From NCBI RefSeq assembly GCF_002849615.1, contig NZ_PDNV01000005.1, positions 1 through 64,000 of the forward strand: a stretch of DNA of 64,000 nt. Reading direction: 5' to 3'. A program made the position numbers and the translations under genes. This document shows positions 6,596 to 63,590 of this stretch, one piece after another (the first letter of the stretch is position 1; each line of letters starts with the position of its first letter). The notes beneath the pieces were generated by a model, which had not been told where the DNA came from, did no database searches, and saw only the letters and a program-made list of their open reading frames with translations. The DNA comes from Pollutimonas nitritireducens. Its GTDB lineage: Bacteria; Pseudomonadota; Gammaproteobacteria; Burkholderiales; Burkholderiaceae_B.

Positions 6596-7548
6596 TCTCT
6601 CGTCGTGATTATTTGAGGCTGTGCATGGCAGTCAGTACCGGCTCCATGCTCAAGTCCGCCTCGTTGTGGGCAAATGAGAAATCCGGTATGGCGTCCGGTA
6701 TCTTGATCACACGGCGTATCCCGTCTTCCGGCGAGACGCTCCCCGTGGTGGGCTTGGGCAGCTCGGCGACGTTCTCCAGCGCGGCGGGCAGTCACGATGT
6801 TGAAGCGTTGAAGCAGGTATTCACCGCCATGGTGGAACGCGGTGGATCGGTTTTTGATACCGCGCCCAGTTATGGCGCATCGGAATCCGTGGCGGGAGGA
6901 ATCGTCAATGACATCGGCATTCGGGACAAGGTGTTCTGGGCGACCAAGCTCAATGTTGCCGGCTATGGCGGGGGAAAAGCAGATGTCGCGCGGGCACGGG
7001 CCCAGATCGAGGCTTCATTCAACGCGGTCCGCAAACCCGTTATCGACCTTATCCAGGTGCACAATCTTGGCGATCTGCCTACTCAGTTGCCGCTATTGAA
7101 AGACCTGCGCGACCAGAAACGGATACGCTACATGGGCGTCACCACGACATTTCCGAGCCAGTACGACTACCTGGAAAAAGTGATGCGCGATGAGCCGCTG
7201 GACTTTATCGGTGTGGATTATGCAATTGATAACCGGATTATGGAGGAACGTATCTTGCCACTGGCGCAAGACCGCGGCATTGCCGTGCTGGTGTATGCGC
7301 CGTTCGGGCGCTCGCGTCTATTCAGTTTGGTGAAGGGACACGAGGTGCCCGGCTGGGCTGACGAGCTGGGCATCCGATCCTGGGGTCAGTACTTTCTGAA
7401 ATTTGTAGTGTCCCACCCGGCAGTCACTTGTGCGACCCCGGCGACGAGCCGCCCAAAGAATATGGTGGACAACATGGGCGCGGCGTATGGAGACTTACCG
7501 GATGCGTCCATGCGGAATCGCATGGCCCAGCACATACAATCTCTGTAA
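6592..7548 (+). CDS. Tat-exported aldo/keto reductase
   Basis: 318 residues. The N-terminus MISRRDYLRL is a twin-arginine motif followed by a hydrophobic stretch, predicting folded export to the periplasm. The aldo/keto reductase tetrad is visible: Asp and Tyr in FDTAPSYG (about residues 88-95), Lys in WATKLN, His in IQVHN. The C-terminal half has the family WGQYFLKFVVSHPAVTCATPAT pattern (a cofactor-site region). NADPH is scarce in the periplasm, so the source of the cofactor is a question. The 4-bp overlap with the MFS gene upstream ties the two functionally. Confidence 0.85.
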   Translation: MISRRDYLRLCMAVSTGSMLKSASLWANEKSGMASGILITRRIPSSGETLPVVGLGSSATFSSAAGSHDVEALKQVFTAMVERGGSVFDTAPSYGASESVAGGIVNDIGIRDKVFWATKLNVAGYGGGKADVARARAQIEASFNAVRKPVIDLIQVHNLGDLPTQLPLLKDLRDQKRIRYMGVTTTFPSQYDYLEKVMRDEPLDFIGVDYAIDNRIMEERILPLAQDRGIAVLVYAPFGRSRLFSLVKGHEVPGWADELGIRSWGQYFLKFVVSHPAVTCATPATSRPKNMVDNMGAAYGDLPDASMRNRMAQHIQSL

Positions 7549-7721
7549 CGACGGTTCACGGCGCGGAAATATCCGCAGTCCGGCGCTTGGCTGCCTGCGC
7601 GCCCGTCAGTCAGCTCGATCATCGTGGAAGATGGTTGTCGCTACCGACTAGGCATCAACGTGAAGTTCTAGTGCGGTTACAAGGTGCAGGCGCCTTTCGG
7701 GCCGGCGTCTCGGGGTGTCCT

Positions 7722-8498
7722 TCACCAGACAGGCTTGCGCTTTTCCACAAAGGCAGCTATGCCTTCTTTGGCGGCTTCGGTTGCAGCGACGTTGCAGAAA
7801 CTGTCTGCTGCAGCAGATACCGCCTGGCGATAGCCATTGTCATTTGCATGCATGAATGCAGACCTCCCGAACCTGACGACTTCCGCCGATTTGTCGCGCA
7901 GGGTCTGCGCAAGCTGACGTGCGCCTTCGAGCTCCTGGCCGTCCCCGGTCAATCGGCAAACCAGTCCCAGCGATACCGCTTCCTGTGCGTCAAAAGAGCG
8001 TCCGGTGAACAGAAGCTCAAACGCCCGGTGTCGGCCGATGATACGCGGCAGATGCGTGAAATGGATGGATGGAAGCACGCCGGCGTCGATTTCCGGATAG
8101 CCGAAAGTCGCTGTGCTGGAAGCCACAATCATGTCGCAGGAGATTGCAATAGTCATGCCGCCGCCACGCGCTGTGCCGCCTATGGCTGCGATTGTGGGCT
8201 TGCCCATATTGAACTGGGTTTCCGTCATCCGGACGTACAGGCGATCAAGCAGCGACCGTACTTTGCTGGTCTCACCCGTGTGAATGGCCGTCAAGTTCAA
8301 TCCGGCCGAGAACCGGCCGGGAACCTTGCTTCCCACAATAACGGCACGAACGTTGGAATCGCGCGATGCCTCTTCCAGAGCTGCAAGGTAGTCCTCCAGC
8401 ATGGTCTCGGATAATGCATTTACTGGCGGATTGTTGAACAGTATTTCTGCAACTTGATTGTTGACGTCATAGCTTAATGCGGACACCGTGTACTCCAA
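7722..8498 (-). CDS. Enoyl-CoA hydratase/isomerase family protein
   Basis: 258 residues, normal crotonase length. The oxyanion-hole segments are present: KVPGRFSAGLNLTAI (about residues 58-72) and AIGGTARGGGMTIAISCDMIVAS (about 106-128), followed by ATFGYPEIDAGVLPS with the conserved Glu region. It is the last gene of a minus-strand operon with the CoA-transferase (33 bp upstream) and the Bug protein, implying breakdown of an imported organic acid through its CoA ester. Which acid cannot be told. Confidence 0.88.
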   Translation of the reverse strand: MEYTVSALSYDVNNQVAEILFNNPPVNALSETMLEDYLAALEEASRDSNVRAVIVGSKVPGRFSAGLNLTAIHTGETSKVRSLLDRLYVRMTETQFNMGKPTIAAIGGTARGGGMTIAISCDMIVASSTATFGYPEIDAGVLPSIHFTHLPRIIGRHRAFELLFTGRSFDAQEAVSLGLVCRLTGDGQELEGARQLAQTLRDKSAEVVRFGRSAFMHANDNGYRQAVSAAADSFCNVAATEAAKEGIAAFVEKRKPVW

Positions 8499-8531
8499 TA
8501 GTTGAGCCTGCTGGTAGAGGGTGGTTCGATT

Positions 8532-9731
8532 CTACGCAGCACAGGCTTGTGTGATTATCCCGTGCTCCTTGAAGGACTGGATGTCTTCCCGGCTATAGCC
8601 GGCCTCGAGAAGAATCTCTTCACTATGCTCGCCGTGCAGCGGGGGAGGACGCGAGGCCGTCCGGTCCTTTTGCTGAAACCGGACCGGATGCCCGATATTC
8701 TGCAATTCTCCCAGCACGGGGTGGTTCGACGCCACGATCAGGCCGCGCGACGCGACCTGAGGATGCGACAGCGCCTCCCCTAGTTTATAAATCGGAGAGC
8801 AGGGCACGCCGACCGCGCTAAGGCATGATAGCCACTCTGATACTGTCCGGGTTTTCATTACGTCCTGCACCAGGGCTTCGGTTTTGGCCAAATTGCTCAT
8901 GCGTATGGCATTGGTGGCAAAGTCGGGGTGGTCGACATAGCTATCCAGACCGGCGACCGAGCAGAATCGGCGCCATTGGGCGTCATTGCCAGCCCCGAGC
9001 ATGATGGGTCCGTCCGATGCTTGAAATGCCTGATAAGGCGACATGGACGGATGGGCCGTTCCCATGGGTTTCGGGTTCACACCCGTGCGCCAATAACTTT
9101 GAGCCATATAAGACATAAAGCCCAGCGCCGTATCCAGAAGCGATATCTCGAGGTACACGCCCTTGCCGGTCCGTCCGCGTTCGATGACAGCGGCCAGCAC
9201 ACCGCTTAGACCGTGCATGGCCGTACCGATATCGACCGGCGAAAAGCTGGCACGTGCATAATGCCCTTCCTTTTCGCCGATGGTGCTGATCATACCGCTG
9301 AAGGCCTGCAACATGACGTCGTAGCCCGGCTCGTTCCCCATGGGTCCCGTTCGTCCGTATCCCGAAATCTCGCAGTAAATCAGTTTGGGGTTCAGTGCCG
9401 CCAGCGTTTCATAGTCAACGCCCAGTTTTTTTGCGGTGCCTCCCCCAAATCCTTGCATCACAATGTCGGAATTTTGAACTAGCCGGTGAACAGCTGCCAG
9501 ACCCGCTTCCGTCTTGAGATCGACGGCCAGGCTGCGTTTATTGTGGTTGACGGCCAGGAAGACCGCGGATTGCCCATGGTCCTGGGGAAGCCACCCTCGC
9601 GTATCGTCGCCTGTGCCCGGCGTCTCGATCTTGATGACATCGGCGCCGAACTCTCCAAGATATTGGCTGCACAGCGGTCCAGCCAACACCTTGGTCAGAT
9701 CAACGACTTTCATACCTTTAAGTGGCTTCAT
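8532..9731 (-). CDS. Family III (CaiB/BaiF) CoA-transferase
   Basis: 399 residues from the ATG at 9731 with a GAGG site upstream; a longer frame to 9794 lacks support. Family features: LKGMKVVDLTKVLAGPLCSQYLGEFGADVIKIE at the N-terminus, NHNKRSLAVDLKTEAGL, and the catalytic Asp in the YLEISLLDTALGFM segment. It transfers CoA to a carboxylic acid. It sits between the Bug binding-protein gene (25 bp upstream) and the enoyl-CoA hydratase in one operon. Confidence 0.9.
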   Translation of the reverse strand: MKPLKGMKVVDLTKVLAGPLCSQYLGEFGADVIKIETPGTGDDTRGWLPQDHGQSAVFLAVNHNKRSLAVDLKTEAGLAAVHRLVQNSDIVMQGFGGGTAKKLGVDYETLAALNPKLIYCEISGYGRTGPMGNEPGYDVMLQAFSGMISTIGEKEGHYARASFSPVDIGTAMHGLSGVLAAVIERGRTGKGVYLEISLLDTALGFMSYMAQSYWRTGVNPKPMGTAHPSMSPYQAFQASDGPIMLGAGNDAQWRRFCSVAGLDSYVDHPDFATNAIRMSNLAKTEALVQDVMKTRTVSEWLSCLSAVGVPCSPIYKLGEALSHPQVASRGLIVASNHPVLGELQNIGHPVRFQQKDRTASRPPPLHGEHSEEILLEAGYSREDIQSFKEHGIITQACAA

Positions 9732-9756
9732 TTTTTGCCTCGCAGATGGAAGTGAA

Positions 9757-10731
9757 TTACTCAGCCTTGATGCCAATGGATAGGGCGGCTTCACGCCACT
9801 TTTTCGTATCGCTGCTCATGAACGTATCCAGGTTTGCCGGTGCCACATAGAAATTTTCCACGCCGCGTGCTGCAACACTCTGACGGTAGGTTGGATCTTG
9901 CACGGCTTTATCAATTGCATGGCGCAGCTTGGCAACCACATCTGGCGGCGTTTTTGAAGGAACTTGCAAGGTGAACCAGAAATCGACATCCACGTCGCCA
10001 AAACCCGTTTCCTTCAACGTGGGCACGTCGGGCAGGAGCGCAGAGCGGTTCGACGATGTAATGGCAAGGGGCACCAACTTGTCGGCTTTGACCTGCGTGA
10101 CGCTGGTGGTCATGCTGTCGAACATGAAGTCGATGCGGCCTGCCAACATGTCGGTAATGGCGCTTGCACTGCCTTTATACGGGATGGGCATGGCGGAGAT
10201 GTCCGCGGCTTTCTCCAGCAAAGAGCCAAAAAAATGAGGTGAGCTTCCAGGGCCGAAGGTCGCGAAGCTCAGTTGCGCGCCGTTCTTCTTGCCTTTTTTG
10301 ACCAGCTCTTCAACTGTCTTGATGCCGGACTCGGGGTGCACGACCAATAGGTTGGGTAAAGCCCCCGTGATGCCAACCGAAATCAGATCGCGGGATGGCT
10401 CGAAATTGGCGCTGGGATACATTAACGGATTCACCGCTTGCATGGCCGCTGTACTGTGGACCAGTGTTAAACCGTCAGGTTTGGCGTTGACGACGTTCTG
10501 GGTGCCAATGTTTCCACTTGCTCCCGGACGGTTGTCGATGACCACGGGCATGCCGAGCTCTTTTGAAAGGGGTTCGGCGAGCAGCCGTGCAATGAAATCG
10601 GTAGGGCCTCCTGCCGAGAACGGTACAACGATGGTCGTCGTTTTTCCACCGCCCAGCTGAGCCATAGCCGGCAACGAGAATGCAGCTGCAACGATTCCGA
10701 CCAATAGTAAGTGGCGAGTTGTTATGTTCAT
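9757..10731 (-). CDS. Bug family periplasmic solute-binding protein
   Basis: 324 residues from the ATG at 10731 (GGAGA upstream). Signal peptide to about residue 24 (SLPAMAQ), then the tripartite tricarboxylate receptor pattern: TTTIVVPFSAGGPTDFIARLLAEPLSKELGMPVVIDNRPGASG, split over residues 30-75, and YKGSASAITDMLAGRIDFMFDS. Bug proteins bind carboxylates, often as orphan receptors without their own membrane genes, as here. First gene of the operon, divergent from the LysR regulator. Confidence 0.9.
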   Translation of the reverse strand: MNITTRHLLLVGIVAAAFSLPAMAQLGGGKTTTIVVPFSAGGPTDFIARLLAEPLSKELGMPVVIDNRPGASGNIGTQNVVNAKPDGLTLVHSTAAMQAVNPLMYPSANFEPSRDLISVGITGALPNLLVVHPESGIKTVEELVKKGKKNGAQLSFATFGPGSSPHFFGSLLEKAADISAMPIPYKGSASAITDMLAGRIDFMFDSMTTSVTQVKADKLVPLAITSSNRSALLPDVPTLKETGFGDVDVDFWFTLQVPSKTPPDVVAKLRHAIDKAVQDPTYRQSVAARGVENFYVAPANLDTFMSSDTKKWREAALSIGIKAE

Positions 10732-10800
10732 GTCTCCATCCTGTTTGAGTTTTTGAACGTTATTCGGAACATCCGAGGCTGGATTCTGAACGCGAGCTGG

Positions 10801-10852
10801 GTATAGGTCAAAGATTAAATTTTCATGGCAGGTATAGTATTCTTGTATAGGT
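10801..10852. promoter_or_regulatory. GTATAG direct repeats, candidate LysR operator
   Basis: GTATAG occurs three times in 50 bp, at 10801, 10832 and 10845; the first and third extend to GTATAGGT. The second and third also form TATA-N9-TATA (10833-10849), which fits the T-N11-A rule for LysR-type regulators. The site lies between the divergent Bug operon and the LysR gene, 29 bp before the regulator start. Binding is inferred. Confidence 0.4.
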
Positions 10853-10880
10853 TGATCACTCATAGCCAGGGACAGTTCAA

Positions 10881-11864
10881 ATGGCCTTCGATCTGCGAAG
10901 TCTACGAAGTTTTGTCGCCGTTGCCTCTACCGGGTCCATCTCGGGGGCGGCGCAACTGCAGCATGTCGCTCAGCCCGCGCTCAGCGTTCAAATCAAGCAA
11001 CTCGAAGAGCAGTTGGGCACAGCGCTTTTTGAGCGGCACGCGCGTGGCGTAACGCTTACGTCCGCGGGTGATCGACTCTTGGTGCACACAATAGAGGTAT
11101 TGAGACGTCTGGATGTTGCATTCGACGACGTACGTGGCGCTGTGGATGATCCTAGTGGCCGCGTTTCGATTGCACTGCCACAATCTGTCGCCAAATTTGT
11201 GACCGTACCACTCGTACGGGAGGTCGTGCTGCGATGGCCCAAGATTCAACTTCAAATGGTCGAAATGAGCACGGGCTATATTCCCGATCAGCTTATGCGT
11301 GGGTACATCGACATCGGTGTGACGTTCGGCGTTGAAGAAGATGTACGGATGAACTTCAAACACCTGATGGATGAAGAACTGGTGCTTGTGACATCACAGC
11401 GGGAGCTGTTGCGTCTGCGCCTGCCGCCGCAGCGCAACAGGACGGATGTCGCCTTGCGATCCATCGGATCGCTACCGATGATTTTGCCGACGGTAGCGCA
11501 CAGTTTACGACGGCGTATCCAGACGTATTTGCTGGAGGAAAACGCAACGTTGAACGTGATTGCTGAAGTCAACGCCATACCCGAGCTAATCGAACTGGTG
11601 GCGGCCGGCGTCGGGTCCACCATATTGTCGTATGCAGCGGTTAACGACCATGTGGTAGCCGGACGACTACTCATGTTGCGGATCAACAATCCCCAGATGA
11701 TTCGATCGATTTATTCCTGTCGGTCGGCAACATTGCCGATGTCGATAGCCGCGACGAAGGTCCAGGAACTGTTGCATGAAACCATTGGCCACGCTGTGGC
11801 CTGCGGCGCTTGGCCACACTTGCTTGATGGTCTGGGCAACAGCGCTGGCGAAGAGCAGGTGTGA
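10881..11864 (+). CDS. LysR-type transcriptional regulator
   Basis: 327 residues. The N-terminal winged helix-turn-helix is textbook: LRSLRSFVAVASTGSISGAAQLQHVAQPALSVQIKQLEEQLG, then LFERHARGVTLTSAGDRLL. The remaining 230 residues are the effector-binding domain. It is divergent from the Bug/CoA-transferase/enoyl-CoA hydratase operon and is its likely regulator. The last residues after about 305 are unusually basic-poor and extend past the common family end, a minor oddity. Confidence 0.9.
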   Translation: MAFDLRSLRSFVAVASTGSISGAAQLQHVAQPALSVQIKQLEEQLGTALFERHARGVTLTSAGDRLLVHTIEVLRRLDVAFDDVRGAVDDPSGRVSIALPQSVAKFVTVPLVREVVLRWPKIQLQMVEMSTGYIPDQLMRGYIDIGVTFGVEEDVRMNFKHLMDEELVLVTSQRELLRLRLPPQRNRTDVALRSIGSLPMILPTVAHSLRRRIQTYLLEENATLNVIAEVNAIPELIELVAAGVGSTILSYAAVNDHVVAGRLLMLRINNPQMIRSIYSCRSATLPMSIAATKVQELLHETIGHAVACGAWPHLLDGLGNSAGEEQV

Positions 11865-11881
11865 CCTTGCCGCGATTTTGT

Positions 11882-12619
11882 CTAGCCGGCCGACCCGTGG
11901 GGCAGCCCCGCCATGGCTTCTTCGATCTCGGCAGCGGTGGGCATGGATACCGCAGCGCCGTGCCGGGTGACCGAAATGCCGGCCAATGCGGCGCCAAACC
12001 GCATGGCTTCTTTTACGTGCAAGCCCCGGGACAAGCCAGCGGCGAAGCCGCCTGTGAACCCGTCCCCGGCGCCAGTGGTATCGATGCACTTGCCAGCGCT
12101 GAACGCAGGCGCCAGATAGGCTTCGTCTGCATTGCAAAGCAATGCACCTTTTTCGCCCAGTGTAATGATTACGTTGGCTGCCCCTTTTGCCAACAGTACA
12201 TGCGCTGCCGCCTTGGCGCTTTCAATCGAGTTCACCTCAATGCCTGACAGGATGCTTGCCTCGGTTTCATTAGGCAGGAGGTAGTCGCACAGCGGGAAGA
12301 CGTCGTCAGGTAACGCACAGGCTGGCGCCGGGTTGAGTATTGTGATTACGCCGTTCTTTTTTGCAAGTTCGAGACCACGCACAGCCGCTTGCACTGGTTG
12401 TTCGAGCTGCACGACGAAGACTGCGGAAGCAGCAATATCGGAAGCGTGGGTGTCGATATCGTCGCGGGTCATGTGTCGCGATGCGCCAGGATAAACGCAA
12501 ATGCTGTTATTCCCGGATCGAGTGTCGACGAAGATGCTGGTAACGCCAGTCACTTCGTCGTTCACGATTCTTGCCTTGCTGCATATGCCTTCGTCTCGCC
12601 AGAGTGCGATAGTTCCCGG
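11882..12619 (-). pseudogene. rbsK: N-terminally truncated ribokinase (PfkB family)
   Basis: The frame covers only about the last three quarters of a ribokinase. Recognisable parts are the VTGVTSIFVDTRSGNNSICVYPGA region, LEQPVQAA, ILNPAPA, LLPNETEA, and the PfkB catalytic signature DTTGAGDGFTGGFAAGL. Missing are the roughly 80 N-terminal residues, including the sugar-binding GGKGAN motif. The frame is continuous back to the codon right after the rpiB stop (12620-12622) and already looks ribokinase-like there (WRDEGICSKARIVNDE), so a deletion joined rpiB to the middle of rbsK. A GTG at 12565 could start a 227-residue product, but it would lack the substrate site. Probably non-functional. Confidence 0.75.
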
Positions 12620-13066
12620 TCACGAAGACAGTTCCATCTGGTGGAGTTTCTCCACCCGCCGACGGCAATCTTCATCAGTGGAAAACTGCGCCTGCAGGTA
12701 GGACTCGACCAGATCGTTGGCCAGCCAGGGGCCGACAATCTGTGCGCCGATACACATGACGTTCACATCATCATGCTCGACGCATTGATGGGCGGAATGC
12801 ACATCGTGACATACGGCCGCCCGGATACCCCGAACCTTATTGGCGGCGATACTGGCGCCAACAGCGGTCCTGCACACCATAATGCCGCGGTCCGCGGATC
12901 CGGCCTTGATCTGGTCCGTAAGTGCCCGGGCAATATCTGGAAAATCCCCAGGTTCGTCAGAATGACTGCCGACATCATGAATTTCATGTCCCATTCTTTT
13001 AACGGCTTCGATGATGGAACCTTTTAAAGACCAGCCGGCATGGTCGGAGCCGACGACTATACGCAT
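12620..13066 (-). CDS. RpiB/LacAB-type sugar-phosphate isomerase with altered motif
   Basis: 148 residues, typical RpiB length. Start ATG at 13066 behind AGGAAG. Family features: MRIVVGSDHAGWSLK at the N-terminus, SIAANKVRGIRAAVCHD, and NVMCIGAQIVGP. The anion-hole motif, normally CGTGIG or CGSGIG, is here CRTAVG (residues 65-70); the catalytic Cys is kept but two glycines are replaced. This suggests another substrate, such as a tetrose or other pentose phosphate (some RpiB relatives isomerise erythrulose phosphates), or reduced activity. Directly followed by the broken ribokinase. Confidence 0.75.
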   Translation of the reverse strand: MRIVVGSDHAGWSLKGSIIEAVKRMGHEIHDVGSHSDEPGDFPDIARALTDQIKAGSADRGIMVCRTAVGASIAANKVRGIRAAVCHDVHSAHQCVEHDDVNVMCIGAQIVGPWLANDLVESYLQAQFSTDEDCRRRVEKLHQMELSS

Positions 13067-54224: not shown

Positions 54225-54906
54225 GAATTACATCCACTCGATTGAAGTTAGTCAATTATGCCAAAGGGTCACCGATTCTTCGGGTGAACTCGATATTCTC
54301 AGCGACGTTAGCTTTACCGTCGCGGATGGCGAGGCTGTTGCCGTCACCGGAAGCTCGGGTTCCGGAAAATCGACCCTGCTTGGACTCCTGGCCGGACTGG
54401 ACGTTCCATCTTCCGGACAGGTAAAGCTGCTGGGACACGATTTATTCGCCCGGGACGAAGAGGCACGCGCGGCCCTGCGCGCGGCCCACGTGGGTTTCGT
54501 GTTCCAATCGTTCCAGCTGCTTCCCAATCTGACGGCCCTGGAGAATGTTATGTTGCCGCTGGAGCTTGCGGGCAGGCCTGCCGTGGACGCGGCCAGCGAT
54601 ATGCTTGAACGCGTCGGCCTGAAGGATCGGTACCATCATTATCCCAAGACGCTGTCCGGGGGAGAACAGCAACGGGTTTCGCTTGCACGCGCTTTCGTGG
54701 TACAGCCGCGATTGTTATTTGCCGATGAACCTACCGGTAGTCTGGACCCGATCAACGGCGCAAAAGTGATCGAACTCATGTTTGCCCTGCATCGCGAGCA
54801 TCAGACAACACTGGTTCTGGTCACTCACGATGCACAGTTGGCCGCCCTGTGTCAGCGGGAGTTGAAGTTGGCTGGAGGTCGTTTGCAGATACCTGACTAT
54901 CGGTAA
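54223..54906 (+). CDS. ybbA: ABC transporter ATPase YbbA-like
   Basis: 227 residues from the ATG at 54223. Walker A GSSGSGKST, Q-loop FVFQSFQLLPNLTALENVMLPLE, signature LSGGEQQR, Walker B LLFADEPTGSLD, and switch His LVTHDAQLAALC: MacB/LolD type. The usual large permease (YbbP) does not follow; the next gene converges and overlaps by 10 bp. Confidence 0.92.
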   Translation: MNYIHSIEVSQLCQRVTDSSGELDILSDVSFTVADGEAVAVTGSSGSGKSTLLGLLAGLDVPSSGQVKLLGHDLFARDEEARAALRAAHVGFVFQSFQLLPNLTALENVMLPLELAGRPAVDAASDMLERVGLKDRYHHYPKTLSGGEQQRVSLARAFVVQPRLLFADEPTGSLDPINGAKVIELMFALHREHQTTLVLVTHDAQLAALCQRELKLAGGRLQIPDYR

Positions 54907-55343
54907 CCGATACCCATCACGTAGTCGCGTAGCAACAAATCCTCGTACTCAACTTCTTTCATCAACACTTCCAACGTTTCGTTGGCGTATAGCAACCCGA
55001 GCGGCTCAGATGCCTGGTTGCTGACGGGAATCTGTTTTAATTTCTTGTCCTTCATGAGAAGCCAGACGTCATAAAGGTTTTGATCAGGATGGCACGCTAT
55101 GACGTCTCGGGTCATGACCTCGGACACCATGGTTGTGCAGCTGCAACCTTGGCAGTAGCTTATTTGCTTCACCACGTCGCTTTTAGTGATCACTCCGGAC
55201 ATCAGGCCTTCCGGATTACACACAACTAACAGATTGGTGTCCATCTCGCTTAGCATTTTGGCTGCGTCTACCAGCGGCGCAGCGATTTCAATCGTAACCA
55301 GACGCTTGCCGGCGGTGGGCAATATAGCTTGAACAAGTGGCAA
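54897..55343 (-). CDS. CBS-pair protein with a Cys cluster
   Basis: 148 residues from a TTG at 55343 with a clear AAGGAG 7 bases upstream. Two CBS repeats: ILPTAGKRLVTIEIAAPLVDAAKML with GVITKSDVVKQI, and VMTRDVIACHPDQNLYDVWLLMKDKKLKQIPVS. Between them is CQGCSC (Cys64, 67, 69), which could bind iron-sulfur or zinc. CBS pairs sense adenine nucleotides. Follows sdhB by 56 bp on the same strand, where gltA or sdhE would be expected. Confidence 0.82.
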   Translation of the reverse strand: MPLVQAILPTAGKRLVTIEIAAPLVDAAKMLSEMDTNLLVVCNPEGLMSGVITKSDVVKQISYCQGCSCTTMVSEVMTRDVIACHPDQNLYDVWLLMKDKKLKQIPVSNQASEPLGLLYANETLEVLMKEVEYEDLLLRDYVMGIGYR

Positions 55344-55398: not shown

Positions 55399-56097
55399 CT
55401 ATAGCGAATGGTTCACCATTGCCAACCGAATATGTTCGATCGCCCGAGACGGCTCAAGGCTCTTTGGGCAGACCTCGGTACAGTTCATGATGGTACGGCA
55501 GCGGAACAAACGGTAGACATCATTCAGGTCATCCAGCCGTTCTTCTGTCGCCTGATCGCGGCTGTCGGCAATAAAGCGGTACGCGTTCAATAGCCCAGCT
55601 GGCCCAACGAATTTGTCCGGATTCCACCAGTATGACGGACACTGGCTTGAACAACAGGCACACATGATGCATTCGTACAGGCCGTTGAGCGATTCGCGTT
55701 GCTCGGGAGACTGCAGCCGCTCTTTTTCAGGCGGCGGCTCGTGATTGATAAGATATGGCTTGATTGACCAGTACTGCTTGTAGAACTGGGTCATGTCCAC
55801 TATCAAATCGCGAATAACCGGGAAGCTCGGCAAGGGGCGCAGCACAACCGGTTCTTCCAAGGTTCTTACCTGAGTAACACACGCGAGTCCATTGCGCCCA
55901 TTGATATTGATGGCATCCGAGCCGCATATGCCTTCACGACACGATTTGCGCATGGTCAGCGAATCATCGAGCTCCATCTTGATGCGCAGGATGACGTCGA
56001 GCAACATGTGATCGTTGAGGCCAATCTCTACATCAAAGTCCTGCATTCTCGGCTTTTTATCGATGTCCGGATCGAATCTATAAATCGAAAATCGCAT
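55399..56097 (-). CDS. sdhB: Succinate dehydrogenase iron-sulfur subunit
   Basis: 232 residues from the ATG at 56097 (GGAAGCAG upstream). All three cluster motifs are intact: [2Fe-2S] CREGICGSD with Cys53, Cys58, Asp61 and Cys73; CIMCACCSSQCPS (Cys143-153); and CRTIMNCTEVCPKSL. Electron transfer from the flavoprotein to ubiquinone. The gene normally upstream, sdhA, is absent: sdhD ends 37 bp before this start. Confidence 0.95.
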   Translation of the reverse strand: MRFSIYRFDPDIDKKPRMQDFDVEIGLNDHMLLDVILRIKMELDDSLTMRKSCREGICGSDAININGRNGLACVTQVRTLEEPVVLRPLPSFPVIRDLIVDMTQFYKQYWSIKPYLINHEPPPEKERLQSPEQRESLNGLYECIMCACCSSQCPSYWWNPDKFVGPAGLLNAYRFIADSRDQATEERLDDLNDVYRLFRCRTIMNCTEVCPKSLEPSRAIEHIRLAMVNHSL

Positions 56098-56134
56098 GGC
56101 TGCTTCCAATATGAAGTACCGCGGCGGTGGCTTA

Positions 56135-56476
56135 TCAGCCGCCCGCTGTGAATAACACCTGCATAACCCATGCCCCCATGCTGATCAGGCTGAGTGCGAG
56201 CAATGCCAGCACAGTCATCCGTAGGGGTAAGGGTTTGACGTAATCCATAATGACGTCACGAAGACCGACCCAGGCGTGAGCAAGCAGGGCGATGAAAAAT
56301 ACGCTGGTCGTGACCATCAGCGCAGCGCCCGACATCGAATCTTGCCACGCGTCATACGACACCGGCGGAAAAAAGACGAAGTACACCAGCAGGAAAAGAA
56401 AGAAAAAAAGCAGGTAAATTGCGGTAAACCGTTGAATGATCCAAGCTCCCAGCCCGCTGACAGGTGACTTTTTCAT
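56135..56476 (-). CDS. sdhD: Succinate dehydrogenase membrane anchor SdhD
   Basis: 113 residues, three helices. QRFTAIYLLFFFLFLLVYF, then HAWVGLRDVIMDYVKP with the haem-ligand His and the quinone-site Asp-Tyr. Overlaps sdhC by 4 bp (56473-56476). Confidence 0.92.
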   Translation of the reverse strand: MKKSPVSGLGAWIIQRFTAIYLLFFFLFLLVYFVFFPPVSYDAWQDSMSGAALMVTTSVFFIALLAHAWVGLRDVIMDYVKPLPLRMTVLALLALSLISMGAWVMQVLFTAGG

Positions 56477-56841
56477 AGGAAAGCCACGGCGGCAAGCACG
56501 GCAAGCAAAGGGCTGATGCAATTGACTATCCAGGCGCTACGCCGAGCCCCAGCCAACCTTGAACCAATATCGATATCACTGAGCAAGTGGCGAACGCCGG
56601 CCAACAGGTGATGGCCCAACGCCCAGGCAAAAAGTATCGCCAAACATCGAATGGGAAGGCTATCGAGTAGCGCCATGGCCTGTTGGTAGGCATCGGGACC
56701 ATCCAGCGACAAATCCAGCAGGTAGATACTGAAAGGAATGCCTATGGCGAGCAGAATTCCGGTAACGCGATGGATGATGGAGGTGATCGCGCCTATTGGC
56801 ATCTGAATCTGGAATACGTTGAAAAAGACCGGCCTTTGCAT
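56473..56841 (-). CDS. sdhC: Succinate dehydrogenase cytochrome b556 subunit
   Basis: 122 residues, three helices. RPVFFNVFQIQMPIGAITSIIHRVTGILLAIG carries the quinone-site Ser and Arg, and ALGHHLLAGVRHLLSDIDIG the haem-ligand His. First gene of the operon; promoter expected in 56842-56944. Confidence 0.92.
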   Translation of the reverse strand: MQRPVFFNVFQIQMPIGAITSIIHRVTGILLAIGIPFSIYLLDLSLDGPDAYQQAMALLDSLPIRCLAILFAWALGHHLLAGVRHLLSDIDIGSRLAGARRSAWIVNCISPLLAVLAAVAFL

Positions 56842-56944: not shown

Positions 56945-58246
56945 TTACATAGTCATGTGCTTGGGTAGCCAGGTGGCGATGCCGGGCACCGCATAAACGA
57001 TAAGCACGCCGAGGATCATGAGCGCGAACATGGGGAACACAACGCGGGAGAGATAAGGCAGCTCTTTCTTGGTCATGCCGGAAAGCACGAACAGGTTGAA
57101 CCCCACTGGTGGAGTGATCTGGGCCATTTCAATAACGAAGACCAGGAATATTCCGAACCATATGAGATCGATGCCTGCCGCGGTGACCGTAGGAAGCAGC
57201 ACACCCATAGTCAATACCACGATGGATATTCCATCAAGGAAACATCCAAGGACGACGAAAAACACCATGAGCGCAATGATAAGGCTGAACTGAGAAAGGC
57301 CTAGGGACCCTATCCACTCCGCAAGAGCCCTCGGCAAACCGATATATCCCATGGACAGCGTCAGGAACTGTGCGCCAGCCAGAATCAGTGCAATCATGCA
57401 ATATAACCGGGTCGCGCCCATGAGCGAATCTTTGAATACTTTCCAATTCAATGAACCCTGCGCGGTCGACAGGATCAACGATCCCACCACACCCACAGCC
57501 GCTGCTTCGGTTGCGGTCGCGAACCCGGTATAAATAGAACTGAGTACCACGGCAATCAGGATGACAACCGGAATCAGGTGACGCGATTCATAGACCTTGC
57601 GGGTGAACGTCATTGGCGCATCGGCCTGCGGAATCTGGTCAGGATGCAGCATTGCCCAAACGGCGATATAGCCCATGAAGAGCCCTGCCAGTAGCATGCC
57701 TGGGAAGATGCCTGCGATGAAAAGCTTGGAAATGGAGACATCGGCCGAGACACCGTAGACGATCATGATGATGGACGGCGGGATCAGCAGACCCAATGTG
57801 CCGGCACCAGCCAGTGTGCCAATGATCTGGTCTTGGGGATAACCGCGGCGGGTAAGCTCCGGTATGGTCATTTTCCCGATGGTCGCACAGGTGGCAGCCG
57901 AAGACCCTGATACAGCCGCGAAGATGGCACAACCGACCACATTGGTGTGCAGCAGGCGCCCCGGTATGCGGTCCAACCATGGTGCCAGCCCCTTGAACAA
58001 GTCCTGGGAGAGGCGCGATCGGAACAAAATTTCGCCCATCCAGAGAAATAATGGCAGGGCTGTGAGTGTCCAGCTTGACGCGGCCCCCCAAATGGTGATG
58101 GCCATGGCGTCGCCTGCAGGGCGATTGGAAAAAAGCTCCATGCCCAGCCAGGCCGCACCGGCCAGAGTAAGGCCCACCCACACTCCACCGGCAAGGAATC
58201 CAAAGATGGACAGCACGAGCAGGGAAATTACCAGCACTTCATTCAT
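56945..58246 (-). CDS. TRAP transporter large permease (DctM)
   Basis: 433 residues with about 12 helices. Family motifs: GGVWVGLTLAGAAWLG, LPLFLWMGEILFRS, SGSSAATCATIGKMTIPELTRRGYP, LGLLIPPSIIMIVYG, and IEMAQITPPVGFNLFVLSGM. Its start overlaps the DctQ stop by 8 bp. Third gene of a DctP-DctQ-DctM operon. Confidence 0.94.
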   Translation of the reverse strand: MNEVLVISLLVLSIFGFLAGGVWVGLTLAGAAWLGMELFSNRPAGDAMAITIWGAASSWTLTALPLFLWMGEILFRSRLSQDLFKGLAPWLDRIPGRLLHTNVVGCAIFAAVSGSSAATCATIGKMTIPELTRRGYPQDQIIGTLAGAGTLGLLIPPSIIMIVYGVSADVSISKLFIAGIFPGMLLAGLFMGYIAVWAMLHPDQIPQADAPMTFTRKVYESRHLIPVVILIAVVLSSIYTGFATATEAAAVGVVGSLILSTAQGSLNWKVFKDSLMGATRLYCMIALILAGAQFLTLSMGYIGLPRALAEWIGSLGLSQFSLIIALMVFFVVLGCFLDGISIVVLTMGVLLPTVTAAGIDLIWFGIFLVFVIEMAQITPPVGFNLFVLSGMTKKELPYLSRVVFPMFALMILGVLIVYAVPGIATWLPKHMTM

Positions 58247-58742
58247 AATGTATTTCTTCGCTGTTCGCTTCGGGAATACCGCGCATGCGCCGTATGGTTT
58301 CGTCGGCGACGCCGATGAAGAAAATGAAAGTGCCTATAGCCATCGCGATTTGCGGTATCCACAAAGGGGTGGCGTCGTCACCGGTTGAAATGTCGTTATA
58401 GGAAAAAGAATCAAGGACCAGTTTTCCGCTGAACCAGCAAAGGTTGGCTGTGATGGCACAGGCTACCAGCAACGCGAAAATATCGAGTCGCATTCGGCCT
58501 TTTGCAGGTAATGCGGCCAACACTAGCGTCACACGTATATGCTCACCACTCTTGAATGTATGGGCCAACGCAAGAAAGCCGGTAGCAGCCATGAAATAGC
58601 CGGCGTATGCATCCAGTCCGCCAATATGCACACCCATTTGCCTGGAAACGATGGACAATACCACCGCGCCCAGGACGCCGACCATGAAGACGGCCGCCAT
58701 GCCGCCTGATACGAGGTATAGTCCATCGAGAAAGCGGCGCAT
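58239..58742 (-). CDS. TRAP transporter small permease (DctQ)
   Basis: 167 residues, four helices (about residues 13-35, 45-65, 85-110, 132-155). The layout and the GLDAYAGYFMAATGFLALAHTFKSGEHIRVTL segment are typical of DctQ. Starts 2 bp after the DctP gene ends. Confidence 0.88.
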   Translation of the reverse strand: MRRFLDGLYLVSGGMAAVFMVGVLGAVVLSIVSRQMGVHIGGLDAYAGYFMAATGFLALAHTFKSGEHIRVTLVLAALPAKGRMRLDIFALLVACAITANLCWFSGKLVLDSFSYNDISTGDDATPLWIPQIAMAIGTFIFFIGVADETIRRMRGIPEANSEEIHYE

Positions 58743-58744
58743 GC

Positions 58745-59722
58745 TTACTTGTTGGCCCGGAAAGTATCGATCACTTTCTGGCCATCAGGACCTGCCTTCT
58801 GGATCCACTCGGTAAGCATGGTGTCGCCGACTTTATCCAGGCCTTTCATCAGGGCGGGGGCAGGCTTGATGATTTCCATGCCATTCTTGGCCAGATTGTC
58901 CAAATACCATTGGGTTTTTTCTTTGGAAAGTGCCCAGCCGCGTTTTTCGGCGTCTGCGCTGGCTTGCAACAGCGCTTTCTTGCTTTTCTCGTTGAGCGCG
59001 TCAAACGCCTTTTTGTTCACGATGACGGCATTCTTGGGCAACCAGGCCTGTGTGTCGTAGAACTTCTTGATGTATTCATAGGTCTTGGTGTCCCAGCCTG
59101 TGGATCCGGACGTCATGAAAGCATTGACCACTCCGGTCGCCATGGCCTGGGCCAGTTCGGACTGCTGGATCGTAACGGGTTGAGCGCCAACCAGTTCGGC
59201 GATACGGGCGGTGACGGGGCTATAGGCGCGCCACTTGACGCCCTTCAGGTCGTCCACGCTGTTGATTTCTTTATTGGCGAAGATACCCTGTGGCGGCCAG
59301 GCCACGGTGTAAAGTGCCGTCATGCCTTGCGCAGCCAGCTTCTTGTTCAGCAGTTCTTTCTGAGCCTGGTAGAGCTTCCAGGCGGCATCGTAGCCAGTGG
59401 CCAGGAACGGGAGTCCGTCCAGTGCATAGATGGGATCTTCGTTCGCGTAATTGGTCAGTAGAATCTCACCGATCTGGGCCTGATTGCCTTGCACCGCCCG
59501 TTTGATCTCCGGGGCCTTGTACAGGGAGGCGTTATTGTGCAGGACGATGTCGAGTTCGCCATCGGAAAGTTTTTTTACATCCTTGACGAACTGCTCAAGG
59601 TTTTGCGTGTGGAGATTCGAAGCCGGGTAGGCACTGGGCAGATCCCACTTTGTTGCCGCATGAGCGTTCAAGGCAAGCGCGGCGGCACCGACTGTGGTCA
59701 GGAAAGCGAGTGTTTTTTTCAT
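58745..59722 (-). CDS. TRAP transporter solute-binding protein (DctP)
   Basis: 325 residues with signal peptide (ALALNAHA). DctP family features: TKWDLPSAYPASNLHTQNLEQFVKDVKKLS, AVQGNQAQIGEIL, GVKWRAYSPVTARIAELVGAQPVTIQQSELAQAM with the conserved Arg binding a carboxylate. First gene of the TRAP operon and divergent from the fused hydantoinase/oxoprolinase gene, so it may bind a cyclic amide or amino-acid-derived acid. Confidence 0.92.
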   Translation of the reverse strand: MKKTLAFLTTVGAAALALNAHAATKWDLPSAYPASNLHTQNLEQFVKDVKKLSDGELDIVLHNNASLYKAPEIKRAVQGNQAQIGEILLTNYANEDPIYALDGLPFLATGYDAAWKLYQAQKELLNKKLAAQGMTALYTVAWPPQGIFANKEINSVDDLKGVKWRAYSPVTARIAELVGAQPVTIQQSELAQAMATGVVNAFMTSGSTGWDTKTYEYIKKFYDTQAWLPKNAVIVNKKAFDALNEKSKKALLQASADAEKRGWALSKEKTQWYLDNLAKNGMEIIKPAPALMKGLDKVGDTMLTEWIQKAGPDGQKVIDTFRANK

Positions 59723-59948
59723 AGGAGAATCCTTTGACGGAACAGTACATTCGTGCGATATGCACAGGGGGCCGATTGTAGTGTGGGAACTTCCAAGATC
59801 CAGCGGTTTCGCCCGTAATTCAGGGTAATCACTAGTGGGGCCCCGGCCTGTGTTTGCGTGCGGGTGGTGAACTGCGTTCTAATCAATTCTTTTTGCGTTC
59901 ACGGTCGTGATAACGGCCGCGTATTGCACATCGGTAATCGGAGCATGC

Positions 59949-62900
59949 ATGAAGAAGTGGCAATTTTGGGTGGATCGTGGCGGTACCTTTACAGACATTG
60001 TCGCGATCACACCCGATCGAAACATACTGACCTGCAAATTGCTGTCCGAAAACCCGGAGCAATATCCGGACGCCGCTGTGGCGGGAATAAAGCGCCTCCT
60101 CAATGTAGATCCCGGCGAGAAAGTTCCAGTAGAGCGGATCGAGTGTGTGAAGATGGGCACTACCGTCGCCACCAATGCGTTACTCGAACGAAAGGGTGAA
60201 CGCACGGTATTGGTCACGACTCGCGGTTTCCGCGACGCCTTGCGCATTGCATACCAGAATCGTCCGCGGCTTTTCGACCGCCATATTGTGCTTCCTGAAC
60301 TTTTGTATGAAAGCGTTATCGAGGTGGATGAGCGCCTCGACGCCCAAGGTCAAGTGCTCAAGACGCCTGATATGGCCGCGTTGGAAACCCAGCTGGCTGC
60401 CGTTTATGCCACTGGCGTGCGCACGATAGCCGTGGTGCTGATGCACGCATGGTTACGGGGCGACCATGAGATGATCGTAGCTCAGCTCGCGCGGGACATG
60501 GGATTCACACAGGTTTCTGTGTCGCATGAAGTCAGCCCGCTGATCAAATTCGTGTCACGTGGCGACACGACGGTGGTCGATGCCTACCTTTCCCCCATAC
60601 TGCAACGCTATGTCCAACAAGTTTCAGCCGAGCTTCCCGGTGTGCCGTTGCTGTTCATGCAATCCAGCGGCGGATTGACGCACGCTGGCAGCTTTCGCGG
60701 CAAGGACGCCATACTGTCTGGTCCCGCTGGCGGTATTGTCGGCATGGCGCGCACCAGCGAGCGGGCGGGTTTCGAGAAGGTCATTGGGTTCGACATGGGA
60801 GGGACGTCAACTGATGTCTCGCACTATGCAGGTGAGTTCGAGCGCGAATTCGAGACGCAGGTCGCCGGCGTTCGGATGCGGGCGCCCATGATGAGCATCA
60901 ATACGGTAGCTGCGGGTGGGGGTTCCATCCTGCACTTTGACGGCGCGCGTTTACGCGTCGGCCCCGATTCCGCAGGCGCGAACCCCGGGCCGGCCTGCTA
61001 TCGACGAGGCGGTCCATTGGCCGTCACCGACTGCAATGTCATGTTGGGAAAAATTCAACCTGATTTTTTCCCCGGGGTGTTTGGCCCGCGCGCGGACGAA
61101 GCCCTCGATGCGGCAACGGTACGGGCACTATTTCGTGAAATGGCCGGTAGCGTCAGCGAGGCTACCGGGCAGGACATGAGCGCCGAGGTGCTGGCCGAAG
61201 GCTTCCTTGCCATCGCAGTAGGTAACATGGCCGAGGCCATTAAGCGTATTTCTGTCCAGCAGGGTCACGATGTCACCACCTACGCACTCACCGTATTTGG
61301 CGGTGCCGGCGGCCAGCATGCTTGCCTGGTCGCTGATGCCCTCGGCATGACGCGCATATTTTCCCATCCTTATGGCGGCGTCCTTTCAGCCTATGGCATG
61401 GGGCTGGCGGATCAGATCGAGATTCGCCAGCAGACGGTAGAAAAATTGCTCGAGCCCGGGCTTATGCCCGTTCTGACGGCCTCCTGTCAGCAGTTGATCG
61501 AGCAGGCCAGCCAAGGCCTGGGCGGGCAGCATGGCAACAACGCGCCGTTGCAGACCACATGCCGCGTTCATTTAAAATACCAGGGAACCGACACGGCGCT
61601 GGATGTGCGGCTATCCGCAGCGATCGCCGACATGCAGACCGAGTTCGAGCAGTCATACCGCAAACGCTATTCATTTTTGATGCCGGACAGAAAGCTGGTG
61701 GTCGAGTCGATATCGGTGGAAGCCAGCCTGGCGGGCGACCAGATCGACGAACCACCGGCGCCTTTGGCGTCGCGCAATGGGGATGCGCAACCCCGGGCGA
61801 TACGGCCCATGTTCAGCGGTGGCCAATGGTGGGACACGCCTGTCTATGATCGTGCCGATTTGCAAGCCGACGATGTCATAACGGGGCCGGCAATCATATC
61901 CGAGCCTAACCAGACGCTGGTGATCGAACCGGAATGGCAAGCTCGCCTGACGAGCCAGAATCACTGGACCCTCTTGCGGCTTCGACCCTTGACGGGTCAG
62001 ATGGAAGTGAGCTCACAAGTCAACCCCATCATGCTGGAAGTGTTCAATAATCTGTTCATGTCGATTGCCGATCAAATGGGGGTGCGCCTGCAGAATACGG
62101 CGTATTCGGTCAATATCAAAGAGCGGCTTGATTTCTCCTGCGCAATCTTCGACGTTCAGGGCAATCTCATCGCCAATGCGCCGCACATGCCCGTGCATCT
62201 CGGTTCCATGAGCGAATCGATCAAGACCGTCATGCGCGAAAATGCGGGACGCATGCAAGCCGGCGACGCCTATGTCGTCAATGACCCCTATCACGGTGGG
62301 ACACATTTGCCGGATGTCACGGTTATAACACCGGTGTTTGACCGGGCCGGGGACCGGATACTGTTTTTTGTGGGTTCGCGCGGGCACCATGCCGACATTG
62401 GGGGCCTGACGCCCGGATCCATGCCCCCAAATTCCAGGACAGTTGAAGATGAGGGCGTCCTGTTCACCAATTTCCAGCTGGTCGGCAACGGAGTCTTTCA
62501 CGAAGCCGAGGCTCGCGCCATATTGGGTTCCGGTAAATGGCCGGCGCGTAATCCGGATCAGAACCTCGCCGATATGCGTGCACAGATCGCCGCCAACGAA
62601 AAAGGCGTGCATGAATTGCTGAATATGTGTGATCAGTTCGGCCTGGGCGTCGTTGTGGCGTATATGCAGCATGTGCAGGACAATGCGGAGGAGGCCGTGC
62701 GCAAGGTGATCACCCGGCTGCGCGATGGTCAATTTGATTATGCACTGGATAATGGGGCGCATATCCGGGTGGCAATCACCGTCAGGCACGAGGACCGCAG
62801 CGCCGTGGTCGACTTCAGCGGCACATCGGCACAGCTGGACAATAACTTCAATGCGCCAGCGTCCATTGCCGTTGCGGCAGTACTGTACGTGTTCCGTACA

Positions 62901-63590
62901 CTGGTTGATGATGACATCCCCCTGAATGCGGGCTGCCTCAAGCCTCTCGAGATCATCGTCCCACAAGGGTCCATGTTGCGGCCCAACCCTCCGGCCGCGG
63001 TCGTGGCGGGTAACGTTGAGACCTCGATGTGTATCGTCAATGCGTTGTACGGTGCTTTGGGTGTGCTGGCTGCCAGCCAGGGGAGCATGAACAACTTCAC
63101 TTTCGGTAACCAGCGCCATCAATACTATGAAACCATTTCAGGTGGCACTGGCGCCGGGCCGCAGATCATTGGTGTTCCTTACGACCAGGCGGGCGGTTTC
63201 CATGGTACGTCGGTGGTACAGGCGCATATGACGAACTCGCGCCTGACCGATCCGGAAGTTCTGGAGCTGCGCTTTCCGGTAAGGCTTGAATCCTACGAAA
63301 TACGTCCAGGCTCCGGAGGGCAAGGGCGATGGAACGGCGGGGATGGCGGCATACGCAGGGTTCGCTTCCTGGAGACCATGACTGCCGCCATTCTCTCAAA
63401 CAATCGCGTCTTTCCGCCGTTCGGCCTGGCCGGCGGATCCGCAGGGGCTTTGGGTGCCAACTACGTTGATCGCGCGGATGGCTCACGGACTGTACTAGGA
63501 CCTCAGGACAGTGCCGAACTGGTGCCGGGCGATGTTTTTGTTATTGAAACGCCAGGAGGCGGTGGTTATGGTCTCAAGGAGTCCTCATGA
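59949..63590 (+). CDS. Fused HyuA-HyuB ATP-dependent hydantoinase/5-oxoprolinase
   Basis: 1213 residues from the ATG at 59949 (CGGAG upstream). N-terminal HyuA half: WVDRGGTFTDIVAI near residue 6, MGTTVATNALLERKG, and the ATP-site FDMGGTSTDVSHY near 280. C-terminal HyuB half from about residue 690: NIKERLDFSCAIFD, MPVHLGSMSESIK, NDPYHGGTHLPDV near 778, and ending ETPGGGGYG. One-chain fusion in the order A-B is as in eukaryotic and some bacterial 5-oxoprolinases. Opens lactam or hydantoin rings using ATP; the exact substrate is unknown. The divergent TRAP system is a plausible importer. Overlaps the next gene by 4 bp. Confidence 0.9.
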   Translation: MKKWQFWVDRGGTFTDIVAITPDRNILTCKLLSENPEQYPDAAVAGIKRLLNVDPGEKVPVERIECVKMGTTVATNALLERKGERTVLVTTRGFRDALRIAYQNRPRLFDRHIVLPELLYESVIEVDERLDAQGQVLKTPDMAALETQLAAVYATGVRTIAVVLMHAWLRGDHEMIVAQLARDMGFTQVSVSHEVSPLIKFVSRGDTTVVDAYLSPILQRYVQQVSAELPGVPLLFMQSSGGLTHAGSFRGKDAILSGPAGGIVGMARTSERAGFEKVIGFDMGGTSTDVSHYAGEFEREFETQVAGVRMRAPMMSINTVAAGGGSILHFDGARLRVGPDSAGANPGPACYRRGGPLAVTDCNVMLGKIQPDFFPGVFGPRADEALDAATVRALFREMAGSVSEATGQDMSAEVLAEGFLAIAVGNMAEAIKRISVQQGHDVTTYALTVFGGAGGQHACLVADALGMTRIFSHPYGGVLSAYGMGLADQIEIRQQTVEKLLEPGLMPVLTASCQQLIEQASQGLGGQHGNNAPLQTTCRVHLKYQGTDTALDVRLSAAIADMQTEFEQSYRKRYSFLMPDRKLVVESISVEASLAGDQIDEPPAPLASRNGDAQPRAIRPMFSGGQWWDTPVYDRADLQADDVITGPAIISEPNQTLVIEPEWQARLTSQNHWTLLRLRPLTGQMEVSSQVNPIMLEVFNNLFMSIADQMGVRLQNTAYSVNIKERLDFSCAIFDVQGNLIANAPHMPVHLGSMSESIKTVMRENAGRMQAGDAYVVNDPYHGGTHLPDVTVITPVFDRAGDRILFFVGSRGHHADIGGLTPGSMPPNSRTVEDEGVLFTNFQLVGNGVFHEAEARAILGSGKWPARNPDQNLADMRAQIAANEKGVHELLNMCDQFGLGVVVAYMQHVQDNAEEAVRKVITRLRDGQFDYALDNGAHIRVAITVRHEDRSAVVDFSGTSAQLDNNFNAPASIAVAAVLYVFRTLVDDDIPLNAGCLKPLEIIVPQGSMLRPNPPAAVVAGNVETSMCIVNALYGALGVLAASQGSMNNFTFGNQRHQYYETISGGTGAGPQIIGVPYDQAGGFHGTSVVQAHMTNSRLTDPEVLELRFPVRLESYEIRPGSGGQGRWNGGDGGIRRVRFLETMTAAILSNNRVFPPFGLAGGSAGALGANYVDRADGSRTVLGPQDSAELVPGDVFVIETPGGGGYGLKESS

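Follow-up and report, generated by a model that had tools for sequence, protein, structure and literature searches.

Results

Layout of the locus

The window, by which we mean the whole 64-kb stretch of DNA analysed here, corresponds to contig C33 of a 4.31 Mb genome assembled in 38 contigs and 100% complete. On its minus strand, second copies of sdhC, sdhD and sdhB follow each other head to tail, and all three are intact. The sdhC gene (56473-56841) encodes a cytochrome b556 anchor subunit of 122 aa (TIGR02970, 110.6 bits, cut-off 52.3) and overlaps by 4 bp with sdhD (56135-56476), whose product is a hydrophobic anchor subunit of 113 aa (TIGR02968, 92.7 bits, cut-off 41.8). The Fe-S subunit gene sdhB (55399-56097) has an ATG start and specifies 232 aa that score above the cut-offs of both PRK05950 (358.6 bits, cut-off 228) and dhsB (277.8 vs 88). 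The sdhD stop codon and the sdhB ATG are separated by 37 bp (56098-56134, minus strand). This is the usual site of sdhA, and the gap is too short for that gene; inspection by eye revealed no convincing remnant of it either, and a tblastn search (E ≤ 1e-3) gave no sdhA match anywhere in the window. Coordinates and gene families are thus as described in an earlier sequence-only reading of this DNA, which had pointed to three consecutive sdh genes with no sdhA between them.

The same reading had noticed a CBS protein downstream, and this could be confirmed: 55 bp after sdhB lies, on the same strand, a gene with a TTG start (54897-55343) for a 148 aa CBS-domain protein (PF00571) with a C-x2-C-x-C motif, which is present in all four family members aligned. 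Immediately upstream of sdhC, after a gap of 103 bp, are the TRAP transporter genes dctM, dctQ and dctP (56945-59722, minus strand; TIGR00786, PF04290 and PF03480). An ORF of 1227 aa (59907-63590), divergent from the TRAP genes, resembles by eye a fused hydantoinase/5-oxoprolinase.

The window SdhB is not of the FrdB type, its best match among solved structures being the SQR subunit 1nek_B (335.8 bits), compared with 146.8 bits for E. coli FrdB (1kf6_B). It also falls below the cut-off of 443 for the SdhB subfamily PRK12575 with 395.8 bits, as do seven other SdhB from loci without sdhA (389-412 bits) and the canonical SdhB of the same genome (433.5 bits).

A complete canonical operon in the same genome

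A complete canonical sdhCDAB operon is present on contig C22, where a full-length sdhA is preceded by sdhC and sdhD and immediately followed by sdhB (111804-112487). The canonical SdhA scores 909.6 bits with TIGR01816 (cut-off 727), and the genes after canonical sdhB look by eye like sdhE and gltA. Of the possibilities raised by the sequence-only reading, that of an sdhA encoded elsewhere is therefore the one borne out by a genome-wide search, and the second sdh operon that it had proposed to look for was found complete. What the window carries is an extra set without a flavoprotein and not the sole SDH of the organism; to call it an operon without sdhA wrongly suggests that the SDH operon of the organism has lost its sdhA. 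The two copies of SdhB are 67-68% identical, those of SdhC 29%.

The FAD_binding_2 domain (PF00890) matches at 35 places in this genome. Of the eight best FAD_binding_2 proteins, all but one, the canonical SdhA, lack the Succ_DH_flav_C domain (PF02910) that forms the SdhA C-terminus. Two of the other seven exceed the TcuA cut-off, one is just under it and one exceeds the flavocytochrome-c cut-off; the remaining three received no NCBIfam name at E ≤ 1e-60.

The canonical SdhA was also matched in all ten genomes of the family that carry sdhCDB (see below), the set to which this genome-wide search was confined. In one of the ten (G025, 75% complete) the match is partial and covers residues 2-266; in two others (G006 and G084) SdhA was matched nowhere but in the canonical copy (E ≤ 0.001).

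Occurrence of sdhC-D-B without sdhA

The arrangement is found in 10 of 268 genomes of the family and 7 of 399 of the order, in total at least 15 distinct genomes, which according to their labels span five families. The family was searched with an SdhC profile; eight genomes matched at E below 1e-60 and two at 1e-25 to 1e-24, and each of these ten best genomes has sdhC-D-B with no sdhA in between. The family count is a lower bound, because gene order was read at the ten best-scoring places only and several genomes that score lower also match SdhC more than once. The order was searched with a DNA pattern that represents the Arg207-containing motif of SdhB (see below); zero mismatches were allowed, so that this count is a lower bound as well. 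The pattern occurred in 13 of the 399 genomes: seven with sdhCDB lacking sdhA, one with a lone sdhB and five with sdhCDAB. Two of the seven, the window's own genome and G084, are also among the ten carriers of the family. When the SdhC sequences of all 15 sdhA-less loci were combined into one profile, the seven order carriers scored 160-206 bits, partly by construction because the profile contains their own SdhC, while the rest of the 399 reached at most 125.2 bits. No genome scored between the two groups, and the four best non-carriers have sdhA in place. In a search of 266 genomes of the class, the best SdhC matches outside the order did not exceed 151 bits; in nine of the ten that were fetched sdhA separates sdhD from sdhB, and the tenth stops at a contig border.

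The distance between sdhD and sdhB is 10-41 bp at all 15 sdhA-less loci, and no sdhA match was obtained in the fetched stretches of 15-64 kb around them. By comparison, sdhA adjoins sdhB in 26 of 26 comparison loci (one, L044, is cut by a contig edge). Two large named plasmids, plasmid 3 of Variovorax sp. SRS16 and pAZKH of Azoarcus sp. KH32C, likewise carry sdhC-D-B with no adjacent sdhA. Of the 71 plasmid records that match sdhA at E ≤ 1e-100, the 60 listed include neither of these two; at their top stands betaproteobacterial sdhA of about 75-77% identity. The named carriers in the genome scan were Pusillimonas sp. UBA6240, Eoetvoesiella caeni, Paracandidimonas soli and an Alcaligenaceae bacterium, which probably correspond to G025, G020, G014 and G028, respectively. 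Four genomes of the window's own genus that were searched lack the set. Rare and patchy as it is, and absent from these four relatives, the set is dispensable.

Cofactor and quinone-site residues

Aligned to E. coli SQR, whose corresponding residues serve in haem, quinone and cluster binding, the window copy retains SdhC S27, R31 and H84, SdhD H71, D82 and Y83 and the SdhB cluster ligands. The equivalents of SdhC S27, R31, H84 and H91, of SdhD H71, D82 and Y83, and of the 11 cluster-ligand positions of SdhB together with P160, W163 and W164 (E. coli numbering) are found at all 15 sdhA-less loci. The H84 and H71 equivalents, along with the scores of SdhC and SdhD above their cut-offs, mark the products as a two-subunit haem b anchor, and the ligand positions, along with the dhsB and PRK05950 scores, mark SdhB as an Fe-S subunit with the ligands of a [2Fe-2S], a [4Fe-4S] and a [3Fe-4S] cluster. 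What the window set lacks of a four-subunit SQR is an SdhA encoded in the same operon.

The only checked residue that differs is SdhB His207, which is Arg201 in the window copy; position 207 is Arg in all 15 sdhA-less SdhB and in both plasmid copies. The quinone-site set (SdhC S27 and R31, SdhD Y83, SdhB W164 and H207) is retained at all 15 loci except for H207, and the statement of the sequence-only reading that haem, quinone and Fe-S residues are intact applies to the residues checked other than this one. The same position distinguishes PDB 2wp9 from 1nek, 2wp9_B having Thr for His. Arg207 was also considered as a marker of sets that lack sdhA, and rejected as not diagnostic. All members have it, but so do five sdhCDAB operons from this order (L139, L140, L141, L144 and L147), which were picked for having Arg; the other 26 SdhB in the tree, from sdhA-containing loci, have His207. 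Because these five operons carry it, Arg207 is compatible with a normal SDH and by itself no proof of a changed function.

Selection and descent

Compared with five relatives, the window copy shows dN values of 0.04-0.21 and dS values of 0.76 or more, two of them saturated (Nei-Gojobori), and by this measure it is under purifying selection. The 15 sdhA-less SdhB form one clade with a support of 100/99, unchanged when nine gammaproteobacterial SdhB were added to a tree with 12 of the 15; the lone SdhB of L138 falls outside the clade. This single clade argues for an old lineage in which, on these data, the arrangement arose once and which is patchily distributed. On a possible gammaproteobacterial origin the two proteins point in different directions: with the SdhC profile, scores reach 151 bits outside the order as against at most 125.2 for other SdhC within it, but in the SdhB tree the set and the gammaproteobacteria are separate.

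Structures of the complex show SdhB with its N-terminal half turned towards SdhA. Within-group identity in this half is 82.5% among 8 of the 15 sdhA-less copies and 83.6% among 25 canonical ones; the C-terminal half gives 88.9% and 88.5%, respectively.

Neighbouring genes

In a comparison of 16 loci, the neighbours are different at nearly every one, so that no pathway is implied. None of the other sdhA-less loci showed the TRAP arrangement of the window, and the transporter was rejected as a functional partner since it is not conserved. A link with denitrification came into consideration through the carrier L090 (G111), which has narG (by profile) and apparent partner genes upstream; it was rejected because narG is found in 6 of 10 carriers and in 113 of 258 other genomes. 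No FNR-like box, with up to two mismatches allowed, lies upstream of sdhC in the eight of the 15 loci scanned. The aconitase gene acnA is situated directly upstream of sdhCDB in L051 (9386-12199) and L052 (9083-11956), and in L172 (5389-8223) it immediately precedes the CBS gene. A link with aconitase is weak because the same type of acnA (76-81% identical) also occurs in non-carriers. L145 has suf genes 2-7 kb upstream and genes for an Rrf2-type regulator and a hemerythrin downstream, and sufD is found at L146; a hemerythrin is annotated after the pAZKH sdhB and a globin gene precedes sdhC of L092. Fe-S and redox stress may be a loose theme of these neighbour genes. Some of the loci lie near genes that by eye appear to concern organic acids.

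The gene for the CBS protein occurs in 18 of the 268 family genomes (E ≤ 1e-25) and adjoins sdh genes in nine of them: five with sdhCDB, two with a second sdhCDAB operon that is complete and two with degenerate remnants of sdh genes. For the other nine, no sdh gene was seen in the stretch fetched, three of these being contigs cut close to the CBS gene. At the sdhA-less loci it follows sdhB in 5 of 15 cases and is not adjacent in 10. Since it recurs beside second sdh genes, the CBS protein is a plausible, optional accessory partner of second SDH systems. The two complete second operons (L094 in G024, 7273-11427; L167 in G241, 8433-12832) have a divergent gene of the same CBS family, and their SdhA is about 54% identical to the canonical one. 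As to the remnants, the CBS gene of L168 (G240) stands beside a C-terminal piece of SdhA and sdhB, and that of L175 (G173) beside sdhC and a truncated sdhD. Further family members (L169, L171 and L178) lie near genes putatively concerned with heavy metals or copper (by eye), and the stretches fetched around them contain no sdh gene.

Discussion

A model for the window set

The window set would represent accessory complex II genes that provide only a haem-bearing anchor (SdhC and SdhD) and the Fe-S subunit (SdhB), while the canonical operon would contribute the flavoprotein SdhA in trans. This SdhA would join the second copies of SdhB, SdhC and SdhD in an alternative succinate:ubiquinone oxidoreductase, in which the same succinate site is connected to a different electron wire and quinone module. 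We think it likely that the set is such a plug-in module joining SdhA in trans, its assembly and activity being deduced from the genes. The genes are intact, conserved, under purifying selection and of one descent, they are borne twice on plasmids, and the family carriers have a canonical sdhA; a flavoprotein shared in trans would be the simplest explanation. Among the points against assembly in trans is the divergence of SdhC, only 29% identical to the canonical copy; SdhA would have to tolerate this module. As for the advantage of such an arrangement, a spare Fe-S/haem module under redox or Fe-S stress, or an altered chemistry at the quinone site, may serve as a lead.

Could SdhCDB instead pair with a different flavoprotein, for instance a TcuA-like or flavocytochrome-c-like one, and oxidize or reduce another substrate? 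Seven other strong FAD_binding_2 proteins are available in the genome and some sdhCDB loci have the apparent organic-acid genes mentioned above. Yet none of the seven has Succ_DH_flav_C, G006 and G084 have no SdhA match beyond the canonical one (in a search with SdhA), and no flavoprotein gene recurs beside sdhCDB in the clustered neighbours as inspected by eye. The second SdhB has moreover stayed 67-68% identical to its canonical counterpart. Another flavoprotein had been among the suggestions of the sequence-only reading; with PF02910 confined to SdhA among the eight best FAD_binding_2 proteins scanned we disfavour it and regard such a pairing as unlikely.

It seems improbable, too, that the set works free of any flavoprotein, be it as a haem/Fe-S quinone-linked electron sink, a sensor or a competitor in assembly, perhaps together with the CBS protein. 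The adjacency of the Cys-motif protein to sdh genes in half (9/18) of the family genomes that have it would suit such a role, as would the lone sdhB and lone sdhC genes that occur elsewhere. Against this, the N-terminal half of SdhB, on the side of SdhA, shows the same degree of conservation as its canonical counterpart, which a role free of SdhA would not require, and at two thirds (10/15) of the loci the CBS gene is not adjacent.

A patchy distribution is also what one would expect of a mere leftover, that is a duplicated sdhCDAB operon which has lost its sdhA and has no separate function, and in L168 and L175 a second sdh operon of another kind has indeed decayed. With 15 of 15 loci intact, the cofactor residues retained, dN low relative to dS in five pairs and a single deep clade extending across five families, we consider redundancy or decay very improbable.

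That sdhA was lost between sdhD and sdhB through an assembly error, a caution voiced by the sequence-only reading and favoured by nothing else, can be practically dismissed, since the same order with its gap of 10-41 bp recurs in 15 separately assembled genomes and on two plasmids amid other neighbours, and the canonical sdhA was assembled elsewhere in the same genome. On the sequence evidence the set is neither an assembly gap nor a pseudogene, and the earlier impression of a real, functional arrangement gains support from its conservation and purifying selection, with the comparison of relatives that had been advised showing the sdhA-less order in 15 genomes.

If SdhA in trans is indeed the partner, one may go further and speculate that SdhA serves as a shared chassis for interchangeable, horizontally carried anchor/Fe-S modules. 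The sdhCDB genes, with the Cys-motif CBS protein as an option, would then be a mobile spare that replaces the stress-sensitive Fe-S/haem half of the enzyme while the sturdier flavoprotein is reused. We put this forward as a tentative and rather doubtful extension.

The four subunits of complex II are usually regarded as an invariable unit and as encoded together. Should the module function as proposed, a set of three of the four subunits, sometimes plasmid-borne, would amount to a natural subunit-swap experiment, and it could be tested which half of complex II sets quinone preference, stress sensitivity and catalytic direction. For annotators, it means that an sdh cluster lacking sdhA need not be broken.

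Comparison with known systems

The window set resembles the E. coli SQR (sdhCDAB, PDB 1nek) in the families of SdhC, SdhD and SdhB, in the haem b ligands, the three Fe-S sites and most quinone-site residues. It departs from canonical sdhCDAB in having no sdhA and an Arg at SdhB position 207, and from the canonical operon of its own genome in an SdhC of only 29% identity.

Extra sdh genes away from sdhA also occur singly. The lone SdhB of the PRK12575 type share with the window set an additional sdhB without adjacent sdhA, whereas no sdhC or sdhD adjoins them. One such gene (L138 in G544, 8979-9683) scores 510.7 bits with PRK12575; another, on a Burkholderia multivorans plasmid (L222, 4980-5690), lies near cytochrome c oxidase genes. 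A lone sdhC is annotated on plasmids of several gammaproteobacterial genera, among them Enterobacter, Pseudomonas and Acinetobacter (L223, L224 and L225), and in these three stretches the neighbours are glutaredoxin, ferredoxin-reductase or oxidoreductase, and sulfite-oxidase-like genes. Among the 30 rows listed for the 102 plasmid records matched, 24 share 33.9% identity to the window SdhC.

In haloarchaea, the gene order is sdhCDBA (PMC8305020), in which sdhB comes directly after sdhD as in the window, but sdhA then follows sdhB. An arrangement of this type is excluded at the 15 loci because the fetched stretches contain no sdhA match. The literature searched, mainly titles and the beginnings of abstracts, did not yield any account of bacterial sdhCDB genes that lack sdhA and share SdhA, and two papers that seemed to match sdhCDB turned out to read sdhCDBA.

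While the bacterial B-C-D set thus appears undescribed in these sources, subunit-swapped complex II is already known in eukaryotes. Paralogues of SDHC and SDHD in yeast are mentioned in a 2023 review (PMC10238741). Helminths have alternative complex II subunits that derive from duplicated genes and are linked to changed behaviour of the enzyme; the duplicates vary by lineage (SDHA and SDHD in Ascaris) and are associated with rhodoquinone and hypoxia (PMC6859908), in contrast to the present case, where SdhA is unduplicated. A further parallel is the alternative SDHC of Zymoseptoria tritici (ZtSDHC3), a dispensable anchor paralogue that combines with the other, shared subunits into a functional, inhibitor-resistant enzyme (PMC6941823). 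There a single fungal gene is linked to resistance to SDHI fungicides, whereas here B, C and D come together in one bacterial cluster.
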